Made by a program: the position numbers and the translations under genes
Assembly (NCBI RefSeq): GCF_033097365.1
Contig: NZ_AP028461.1
Coordinates: 7,564,001 to 7,628,000 of the forward strand
Reading direction: 5' to 3'
From: Actinoplanes sichuanensis
GTDB taxonomy: Bacteria > Actinomycetota > Actinomycetes > Mycobacteriales > Micromonosporaceae
Length of the DNA: 64,000 nucleotides
Part shown: positions 18,212 to 22,356 of the stretch, piece after piece
How positions within the stretch are numbered: position 1 is the stretch's first letter
Layout of the letters: each line of letters opens with the position of its first letter
Notes under the pieces: generated by a model
Told to the model about the DNA's origin: nothing
The model's input: only the letters and a program-made list of their open reading frames with translations
Database searches by the model: none

Positions 18212-18332
18212 TCAGGGTCACTAGAGGCCCCTGAAGAGCGAGACTATCGGCCCGCCGTACCACCGCGGAGGGACGGTCCCGCCGACTTACACCCCGTTCA
18301 GTGCGGAGCCGATTTTCTTAAGTTGCGATTAA

Positions 18333-18495
18333 GGAGTACGCTCCCAACCGGTTCCCAGGCCCGACGAGCTGATGGAGGTGATCGCTGTGCGAGATAGCGA
18401 TCCTCCTAGTCGTGGCCGGGACGCTCGTCAGCGTTTCTGACCGCTGACCAGACGACTCCCCATCCGCACGCCCACCGGCTTTCCGCCGGCTTTTT
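18333..18495 (+). ncRNA. Candidate structured small RNA ending in an intrinsic terminator
   Basis: In the 388-bp gap between fabG and the small peptide gene, the plus strand can fold into a chain of helices. First comes a UACG-loop hairpin GGAG/CTCC (18333-18344). Next is a long composite stem 18360-18420 built from CCCG/CGGG, ACGA/TCGT, GGAG/CTCC and GATCGCT/AGCGATC. It is followed by GTCAGCG/CGCTGAC (18427-18448), then CCGGC/GCCGG with five Ts. The AT-rich stretch 18311-18332 just upstream could hold a promoter. A 17-22 codon frame starting at 18372 or 18387 lies inside the folded part, but its start region is in the stem. I know no Rfam family that it matches. Confidence 0.5.
18475..18495 (+). 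terminator. Intrinsic terminator
   Basis: Stem CCGGC/GCCGG with a 5-nt loop, then C and five Ts (18491-18495). One of the few textbook terminators in the window. It ends a plus-strand transcript for which no ordinary gene exists upstream. Confidence 0.7.
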
Positions 18496-18569
18496 CCGCG
18501 TGCGATGGTTTCCGGCCGCGACCGACCACAGCGCCCTTTGCTCAGTCGCCAGCGGAAGACGGTTCAACC

Positions 18570-18656
18570 ATGCGTAACTTCGTCGCGCCCCTCGGTTTCA
18601 CCCTGCTCTCGGCGTGGGTCGTCGTGCTGTTCGTGCTCGCCCACAACACCCCGTGA
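18570..18656 (+). CDS. Possible 28-aa membrane micropeptide
   Basis: ATG 18570 opens MRNFVAPLGF then TLLSAWVVVLFVLAHNTP, essentially one transmembrane helix with a basic start and short tail. It stops directly against the convergent VWA gene. The only ribosome-like sequence, GGAAG, is 11 nt away, which weakens the case. The hydrophobic pattern is not forced by the opposite strand because no other gene lies here. I call it plausible but unproven. Confidence 0.35.
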   Translation: MRNFVAPLGFTLLSAWVVVLFVLAHNTP

Positions 18657-19607
18657 TCAGGGCAGCCTCGAGGTCCACAACAGGCTCGTCGCGGCACCGG
18701 CCAGCCCCAGCAGCAGGCCGATCGCCGCATACCACTGCGTCACCTCACGTGGCTCGGTGCGGTGCCCGATCGAGCTGCCCATGTCCTCGTAGACCTGCTT
18801 CAGCTCACTGACCGACGCCGCCTCGTAGAAGTAGCCCTTCGTCTGCTCGGCCAGATCCTGCAGCGACAGCCGGTCCACCGGCACCCGCTGCACCGAGCCG
18901 CGGATGTCCACCACACCGGTGTCGGTGCCGAACGCGATCGTCGACACCGGCACGTTGGCCTGCACGGCGGCGGTCGCCGCGTCCTCGATCGACCGGCCCG
19001 ACGTGCGGTACCCGTCGGAGAGCAGCACGATCCGGGCCGGCGGAGCGCCGTCCGCGCCGTCCGACGGCACCATCCGGATCGCATCCAGCGAAGTGAACAC
19101 CGCCTCACCCGTCGCGGTCGCCTCGGCCAACGTCAACCCGTCGATCGCGGAGATCACCGCGGACCGGTCCTTGGTCGGCGCCACCAGCACGTTCGCCGCC
19201 TTCGCAAAAGACACCAGACCCAGGTTGTACGTCGGTGGCAGCTCGCTGACGAACGCCTTCGCCGCCTCCTGTGCCGCCTCGATCCGGCTCGGCTCGACAT
19301 CCTCGGCCTGCATCGACAGCGAAACGTCGATGGCGAGCATCACGGTGGCCCGTTCGAGGGGCTCCTCGGTGTCCACCGACGGGCGGGCCGTCGCCGCCGC
19401 CAGCGCACCCAGCATCAGCAGGAACGCGGCCGCCGACACGTGCCGGCGCCAGCCCAGGCCCTTCGGTGCGAGGGTGCGCAGCAGGTCGACGTTGGTGAAC
19501 CGCATCGCGTACTGCCGCTTACGGAACTGCCGCCAGACATAGGCCCCGGCCATCGCCAGGACCGGCAGCAGGGTCAGCAGCCACCACGGCTCCAGGAAAC
19601 GGATCAT
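18657..19607 (-). CDS. VWA-domain membrane protein (BatA-like)
   Basis: 316 aa. A transmembrane helix (about 7-25) and a second one (about 55-72) are followed by a von Willebrand A domain. Its MIDAS is intact: D94-V-S96-L-S98, a Thr in the ATATGEA loop and the Asp of LLSDGYRTSG. A final helix lies near the C-terminus. This fits the MoxR-DUF58-VWA module, in which the MoxR ATPase acts as a chaperone for a surface-exposed metal-binding domain. The start overlaps the DUF58 stop (ATGA). Confidence 0.92.
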   Translation of the reverse strand: MIRFLEPWWLLTLLPVLAMAGAYVWRQFRKRQYAMRFTNVDLLRTLAPKGLGWRRHVSAAAFLLMLGALAAATARPSVDTEEPLERATVMLAIDVSLSMQAEDVEPSRIEAAQEAAKAFVSELPPTYNLGLVSFAKAANVLVAPTKDRSAVISAIDGLTLAEATATGEAVFTSLDAIRMVPSDGADGAPPARIVLLSDGYRTSGRSIEDAATAAVQANVPVSTIAFGTDTGVVDIRGSVQRVPVDRLSLQDLAEQTKGYFYEAASVSELKQVYEDMGSSIGHRTEPREVTQWYAAIGLLLGLAGAATSLLWTSRLP

Positions 19608-20613
19608 CGTGTGGTCCCTCGGGTACGGGCGTGGCGCGAAGCGGCCACGAAGCGGACCATGTCGAGCAGCCAGTCGGTGTCGGTGCGCAGCCGCAGGTGG
19701 CTCGCGCCGGCCGCACGCAGCGCGCGGGCGATCGCGGCACGCTGCACGCCGGCCGCCTCGGCGTACCGATGGCGCAGTTTCGCATCGGACGTCTGCACCT
19801 CGTGCAGCGCCCCGGACTCCGGGTCGGCCAGGGTCAGCACCCCGACGTCCGGAAGCTCCAGCTCACGCGGGTCGACCACCTCGATGGCCAGCACGTCGTG
19901 GCGGACCCCGAGTTTCTTGATCGGCCGGGCCCAGTTGTCCACCGGCGCCAGGAAGTCGGAGATCACCACGGCCACGCCGCGCCGCCGCGGAGGCCGGTTC
20001 AGCATGTCGATCAGCGCACCCAGATCGGCCCGGCCGGGCTTGATCTTCGTGCCGGCGATCGCCCGCAGCAGGCCCTGCGCCTCCTTACGGCCGGGCCGCG
20101 CCGGCAGGCGCAGAATCGGGGACCAGGGCGTCGGCTCCGGGTTCGCGGCCGGCTTACGGCGCCACCAGCTTCCGCCAGACCCCTTCTCCGGTACGCCGGA
20201 CCCGGTGCCCACCACGGCGCCGATCCGGTTGCCGCCCCGGACGGTCAGATGGGCCATCGCCGTGGCGGCCGCGATCACCAGATCCCGTTTCAGCCATTTG
20301 GCGGTGCCGAAGTCGAGGCTCGCCGACAGGTCCACGGCCAGCCACGTCTCCAGCTCGCGATCGGCCACGGTCCGGCGCACGTGCGGCATCGTGGTGCGGG
20401 CCGTCACCGGCCAGTCCATCCGGCGCACGTCGTCGCCCGGCCGGTACTCCCGGGACTCGCCGGCCTCGGTACCCGGACCGGGCAGCAGGCCCGCGTAGTC
20501 GCCCTGGAGCAGACCGTCGAGTTTGCGGGTGACGAGCAGTTGCAGCCGACCGAGGACGGCCTCGGCGCGGGCCGCCTCCTCCGGGGCGACGGGCATCGCG
20601 GCGCCCGGCCGGG

Positions 20614-20617
<4 letters not shown>
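19604..20617 (-). CDS. DUF58 protein of the MoxR module
   Basis: 337 aa. SREYRPGDDVRRMDWPVTART is the DUF58 signature, followed by a VWA-like half with WLAVDLSASLDFG. It is soluble, and its start and stop overlap the upstream MoxR and downstream VWA genes by ATGA, so three proteins are made in a coupled way. The role is inferred from the module: an adaptor between the MoxR ATPase and the VWA membrane protein, possibly in envelope stress or cell wall processes. Confidence 0.92.
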
Positions 20618-22083
<1,466 letters not shown>

Positions 22084-22356
22084 CGGTCCTCCACAACTGT
22101 CGAGAAACGCCGGCTCTTCGACGCCGACGGTCAAGACTTACACGACAGACAACAGCACACGGCTGAGAGGTTCCTAAGAACCCCACGTCCGTACTGCACG
22201 GCAGCATAGGGAGCCGTGTCGTCATCCGGGCGTCATCATCGCCGGATTCGCATGTCTTCGCAGCCCAGAATGCCATGGGCCGAATGTGTGGATCTTTCTG
22301 CGCGATCCGCCGGATCGGGCACCGTCACCGGGTACTCACGCGACCTTGGGAAGCGT

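Follow-up and report, generated by a model that had tools for sequence, protein, structure and literature searches.

At this locus, the plus strand of the interval between a VWA gene and fabG contains a strongly folded sequence, and the question is what it encodes. The window, i.e., the whole stretch of 64,000 nucleotides that was analysed, belongs to the genome of Actinoplanes sichuanensis (12.1 Mb, one contig). A first-pass annotation had interpreted positions 18333 to 18495 as a free-standing small RNA that ends at a terminator of its own, or else as a riboswitch or attenuator lacking its gene. The neighbouring genes form a run on the minus strand: MoxR (20614-22134), DUF58 (19604-20617) and VWA (18657-19607), beyond which lie fabG, fabI and a gene that is presumably hemH. 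The C-terminal part of MoxR (window positions 20680-20990, minus strand) is collagen-like (Pfam Collagen, E 0.006, under its cut-off).

Comparison with related genomes indicates that the plus strand very probably carries a compact unit, composed, in this order, of a promoter, a Shine-Dalgarno sequence (SD1) enclosed in a hairpin (P1), a 17-codon upstream open reading frame (uORF), an element E and a 28-aa open reading frame (ORF2). It would be transcribed as a short mRNA from approximately 18349 to 18656.

The strength of the folding, as first reported, is confirmed. For positions 18320-18510 of the plus strand, the predicted energy is -82.5 kcal/mol, compared with a mean of -66.8 kcal/mol for 200 dinucleotide shuffles, all of which it beats (z = -3.79). 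For the fuller leader (18349-18586), z is -2.87, and a single shuffle out of 200 folds as well. The remark that this RNA was not recognisable as a known family also holds: no Rfam match reaches the gathering threshold in the window, and the two matches within 18260-18680 are at chance level. No earlier description of the unit was found in the literature, searched through titles and the openings of abstracts, with few subscription journals and no supplements.

The unit is widespread in the Micromonosporaceae, the family that includes Micromonospora, Salinispora and Actinoplanes. A 251-base query finds the folded element conserved in all 35 other genomes of the genus that were searched and has no match among 24 genomes from other families. 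The core, searched with a 96-base query, occurs in 210 of 250 Micromonosporaceae genomes and in 34 of 44 genera; among its faintest matches are genomes G105 and G208, whose sites proved empty on inspection. Across the class, a strong DNA match was found in 345 genomes only in the own genome and in two of the same family. The unit is absent from the 17 inspected sites among the 20 weak matches, the other three being known from the match alone. A profile of the 28-aa protein, run on 340 genomes of the class, gave three strong matches, all in Micromonosporaceae, and 24 weak ones, judged on score and frame length alone. A pattern scan of named genomes returned at least 120 stretches; the 80 loci listed from it bear Micromonosporaceae names, except L165, a metagenome-assembled genome labelled Actinobacteria only. 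Their genus names were checked against the taxonomy save Verrucosispora, which we take to belong to the same family. Further counts refer to a set of 177 loci, among which genomes overlap.

The leader and ORF2 occur together. The 28-aa profile is found in 19 of 21 genomes with the core, the two core-only genomes having marginal core matches and empty sites, and in one of 20 genomes without it (20 rechecked out of 40 core-less family genomes); in this sole ORF-only genome the locus is a contig end. VWA is present in 21 of 22 genomes (the 20 core-less ones plus G105 and G208), and, the contig end aside, both the core and ORF2 are missing from all 20 such VWA loci. At those loci, the start of fabG lies ~52-233 nt from VWA in 18 cases, ~1.3 kb away in one and outside the locus in another. 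The short VWA-fabG interval of these unit-less family genomes (L280-L298) gives the unit the look of a discrete cassette. A midpoint-rooted VWA tree of 56 rows, out of 67 loci, requires two changes of unit presence, in the simplest case one gain and one loss. A possible second copy of the unit, L150, is without GGAGGTGATC; eight further candidates are 24-nt matches known from the match alone. Of 78 loci with the unit, 71 have VWA downstream, on the other strand, and 24 have a divergent fabG upstream, in a flank of 1.5 kb. The neighbour that is kept is VWA rather than fabG; hence, the fab genes need not be the target of the unit.

ORF2 (MRNFVAPLGFTLLSAWVVVLFVLAHNTP, 18570..18656, plus strand) had been set aside as a doubtful peptide, with no gene recognised downstream of the folded sequence. 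This reading must be reversed: ORF2 is recovered in 176 of the 177 loci, the exception being L209 (L231 is also weak), both near the ends of their loci. It sits 119-319 nt from SD1 across the loci and, in the window, 75 nt past the T-tract. Among 130 distinct sequences, the ratio of synonymous to non-synonymous differences, counted on codons with a single change and over pairs that are not independent, is 43667:25876 in frame, compared with 15715:54616 and 6930:60383 in the other two frames. These counts indicate that ORF2 is under purifying selection. Its product is hydrophobic (GRAVY 1.22), with a single predicted membrane span, and is probably a conserved membrane-spanning protein; neither Pfam nor NCBIfam contains a matching family for it or for the uORF peptide. 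MgtS, MgtR and TisB are membrane proteins of ~30 aa with one hydrophobic span, and ORF2 resembles them in length and in this single span, a likeness at the level of general description only. The idea of an attenuator was thus of the right kind; only its gene had been missed, and this gene is ORF2.

The uORF (VRDSDPPSRGRDARQRF, 18387..18440, plus strand) has a GTG start, 17 codons and a TGA stop. A frame of 12-20 codons is present in 177/177 loci, with exactly 17 codons in 142, and starts with GTG in 171 and with ATG in six. Shifted by two bases, the frame meets a stop after two codons in 175/177 loci; shifted by one base, it runs for 14 to 100 codons or more. One clear in-frame insertion of three bases is seen, in L135. 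At the sequence level, the conservation of the frame and the exchange of GTG for ATG suggest that this short frame is translated. Its Shine-Dalgarno sequence, SD1 (GGAGGTGATC, 18374-18383), is enclosed together with the start codon in hairpin P1 (18374..18406, plus strand) and complements the tail GATCACCTCC, of which there are four copies in the genome, presumably the 16S ends. In 60 aligned rows, 99.6% of the P1 cells are paired, with 8 of 13 pairs invariant and none changed on both sides; covariation is therefore silent on P1, and its pairing is plausible only. The near-invariance of one part of the leader suggests that it serves an important common function. A further local hairpin is predicted around the uORF stop codon (18427..18448, plus strand) and appears, by eye, broken or shifted in several relatives.

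The best supported helix is P2, which escaped the first reading. Its 5' strand consists of uORF codons 8-12 (18408..18420) and its 3' strand is element E (18511..18523), both on the plus strand, so that P2 bridges ~90 nt, across the supposed terminator. E was located with a weight matrix; its consensus was not picked blind, since its complementarity to the core had already been noticed, and compensatory changes were not used for its placement. The 52 pairs tested (out of 55 distinct ones, three scoring E below 5 bits) form on average 11.69 of 13 pairs with their own partners and 11.30 with swapped ones; none of 20000 permutations, uncorrected for kinship, reached the value for own partners. 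For the 19 rows with variant cores, the difference is larger (11.74 vs. 10.91). In an alignment of 60 distinct rows, each scoring more than 9 bits for E, 8 of the 13 pairs are changed on both sides, in 24 cells compared with 5.5 in shuffled alignments (0/500), and slid registers give at most five such cells. E is weak in a few relatives, 9 of 97 rows being below 9 bits. In the window's own leader, P2 is part of the minimum-energy fold, with a mean pair probability of 0.99, and the fuller fold includes both P1 and P2. Covariation among relatives is thus present, in a place other than expected, and supports a pairing of the uORF strand with the downstream element.

E also has a second, coevolving pairing partner. 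Its 3' part and tail are complementary to the Shine-Dalgarno region of ORF2 (SD2, 18543..18558, plus strand, with GGAAG at 18554-18558), forming helix P3. When the segment from E to the ORF2 start is folded alone, 71 of 75 distinct leaders join E to this region by five or more pairs, the 9/97 rows with a weak E being left out. For 33 mainly genus-level representatives, P3 has an energy of -14.4 kcal/mol with own partners and -12.0 with swapped ones (0/20000 permutations, uncorrected for kinship). For 120 of 138 distinct leaders, the values are -15.5 and -13.2 kcal/mol (0/10000), and -12.1 with shuffled partners (0/200). A control pairing of the core with SD2 gave no signal (17970/20000). These comparisons support an alternative pairing of E over the downstream ribosome-binding site. 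The two helices share the ACGAC part of E; as this overlap is only partial, they could coexist.

Of the multi-part stem of ~60 nt described at first, the outer part, formed by the upstream flank with the core, is not confirmed: covariation gives it mixed support, and it yields to P2 in the fuller fold. Own partners give -16.7 kcal/mol and swapped ones -15.9 (103 of 20000 permutations as low), ranking in the best 10% in 13/33 cases and above the median in 13/33. This mixed outcome suggests that the outer stem may hold in a subset of relatives.

Sequence comparison supports the promoter motif, the translated uORF, the membrane ORF, P2, P3 and the overlap of the two helices; transcription itself, the direction of the switch, its signal and what the membrane protein does are inferences. 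The leader is likely a translational attenuator controlled by the uORF and acting on ORF2, whatever its sign. While the uORF is free of ribosomes, P1 and P2 would form, and codons 8-12 would hold E; P3 could then not close over SD2, and ORF2 would be translated. A ribosome on the uORF would cover the 5' strand of P2 and free E, upon which P3 would form and ORF2 would be shut. The signal would be the ease with which ribosomes start on the uORF or move along it.

In the portions of the literature available, the closest mechanism is that of the mgtQ-mgtB leader of Salmonella, where occupancy of the uORF frees the next ribosome-binding site and, together with acidic codons, raises mgtB, which encodes a Mg2+ transporter (PMC8092293). 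In both leaders, a short ORF overlaps stems that form alternatively, the next ribosome-binding site being hidden in one of them, and both would act at the level of translation; here, however, the predicted sign is the opposite, and neither the uORF nor the stems nor the 28-aa target is related to its counterpart in mgtQ-mgtB, as far as that account goes (PMC8092293). The closest actinobacterial precedent, on the same footing, is the ilvB-II motif of Corynebacterium, a "structured RNA" later shown to contain a conserved uORF and to involve attenuation (PMC10272879). The likeness lies in an actinobacterial structured RNA with a conserved uORF; in contrast, ilvB-II is described as attenuating transcription with branched-chain amino-acid codons (PMC10272879), whereas here there is neither a conserved terminator nor such codons in the uORF.

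Given this architecture, the direction with P2 as the on state and P3 as the off state is somewhat favoured. SD2 is unpaired at 0.27 on average with P2 forced and at 0.17 with the uORF masked, rising in 58 and falling in 9 of 113 leaders. Opening the ORF2 start costs 8.71 kcal/mol with P2 and 9.33 with the uORF masked, and, of 70 leaders (69 random ones plus the window's own), 32 open more cheaply with P2 and 18 at greater cost. The large contrast expected between the two states is absent from both sets. The window's own leader buries SD2 to the same degree whichever state is imposed (0.05), and its ORF2 start costs more to open with P2 (7.9 vs. 7.0 kcal/mol). The folding thus favours this direction weakly, and not in the window itself; hence, the architecture can be stated with confidence and the sign with reserve. 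The strongest alternative is the opposite sign, in which ribosomes on the uORF promote ORF2 through coupling, through re-initiation or because they open up a fold of P1, P2 and P3 together in which both ORFs are otherwise shut. The partial overlap of P2 and P3, the small folding contrast, absent in the window, and the mgtQ-mgtB precedent, where a ribosome-occupied uORF increases expression of the gene that follows (PMC8092293), all agree with it, but the greater mean openness of SD2 with P2 forced in the 113 leaders does not, and this sign is considered the less probable one.

Still less expected is a nascent uORF peptide that serves as the sensor, the acidic and proline-containing DSDPP destabilising or stalling the ribosome; low Mg2+ or a shortage of EF-P would then throw the switch. 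MgtL and MgtQ provide the precedent of a destabilising acidic/proline uORF. Residues S4-D5-P6 are kept in nearly all listed uORF peptides, the exception being L135 (DGDPP), and codons 6-8 include the rare CCT (2 of 165 proline codons) and AGT (9 of 130 serine codons), with seven neighbouring genes as the reference. However, residue 3 varies (D, N, S or R), and residue 7 is changed to S or L in several loci. The constancy of the other residues can be explained by the P1 pairing, since codons 1-7 lie in P1, by which the bases of codons 6-8 are also partly fixed. Under the favoured attenuator, the rare codons could make the ribosome linger while it covers the P2 strand. The leader offers a testable case in which the conservation of uORF codons seems to owe no less to RNA pairing than to the peptide.

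As for the signal, a speculative and rather unlikely possibility is that the leader gauges ribosome availability: scarce 30S subunits would leave P2 in place and the membrane protein would be made, and plentiful free ones would translate the uORF, break P2 and turn the protein off. The basis for this idea is that the 10-nt SD1 is exactly complementary to the 16S tail and is sequestered in a hairpin by an arm that itself looks like the tail; abundant 30S subunits would outcompete this arm. If true, the leader would link translation status to a response at the membrane.

An independent small RNA of ~150 nt ending at its own terminator at 18494 is very unlikely. The GC hairpin followed by CTTTTT, which had been called a terminator, was found by the scan (18475..18494, plus strand; hairpin at 18475-18489, one found vs. 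0.3 expected) and, together with the strong fold, agrees with such an RNA. Among 176 leaders, however, the run of five Ts occurs in one, namely the window's own; TTTT occurs in eight. Looser T-rich stretches (at least five Ts in eight bases, with no preceding hairpin required) are seen in 34 and speak for such an RNA. A conserved hairpin with a U-tract, as expected of a transcription attenuator or the terminator of a small RNA, was not found across these leaders. The hairpin may still act as a terminator in this genome alone. As the U-tract is not conserved, an independent small RNA is the less likely; in addition, E, the strand that covaries with the uORF, is situated past the terminator, and the leader and ORF2 co-occur. 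Equally improbable is a type I toxin-like ORF2 silenced by its buried Shine-Dalgarno sequence, for its 28 aa (a size similar to that of TisB), its GRAVY of 1.22 and its paired SD2 region would fit, but the unit keeps one stable site, adjoins VWA in 71/78 loci and shows only two presence changes in the VWA tree.

The unit is a new leader RNA with a new small membrane protein, under the familiar logic of an attenuator. To much of the Micromonosporaceae it adds an RNA element absent from Rfam and a 28-aa membrane protein for which neither Pfam nor NCBIfam has a family.

The promoter is recognisable by the motif GTANNNT, which occurs within 75 nt upstream of SD1 in 157/177 loci, compared with 21.8 expected in shuffles. 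In the window, its -10-like hexamer TACGCT lies at 18337..18342 (plus strand), with a predicted start near 18349; a sigma-70 scan did not find a full promoter with two hexamers. The UACG-loop hairpin previously placed at the head of the RNA (18334-18345) contains GTACGCT, i.e., the -10-like element of this conserved motif, and, with transcription starting near 18349, would lie outside the RNA. The case illustrates how a promoter and a species-specific T-tract may pass for components of a small RNA. A direct repeat TTAAG..TTAAG, 11 bases apart (window positions 18317-18334), immediately precedes the -10 element; it is common to many loci of the genus and is possibly a regulator site. Two loci of the genus, L027 and L029, have ~65 extra nt between the promoter and the core. 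In genome G007 (contig 42, 6904-51449; L300:1782-2642), ~44 kb separates the matches to window positions 18270-18333 and 18320-18520, which overlap by 14 bases. A tyrosine recombinase gene (PF00589, 7.9e-16) is located near one end of this DNA, which looks like an element integrated in the promoter of the unit.
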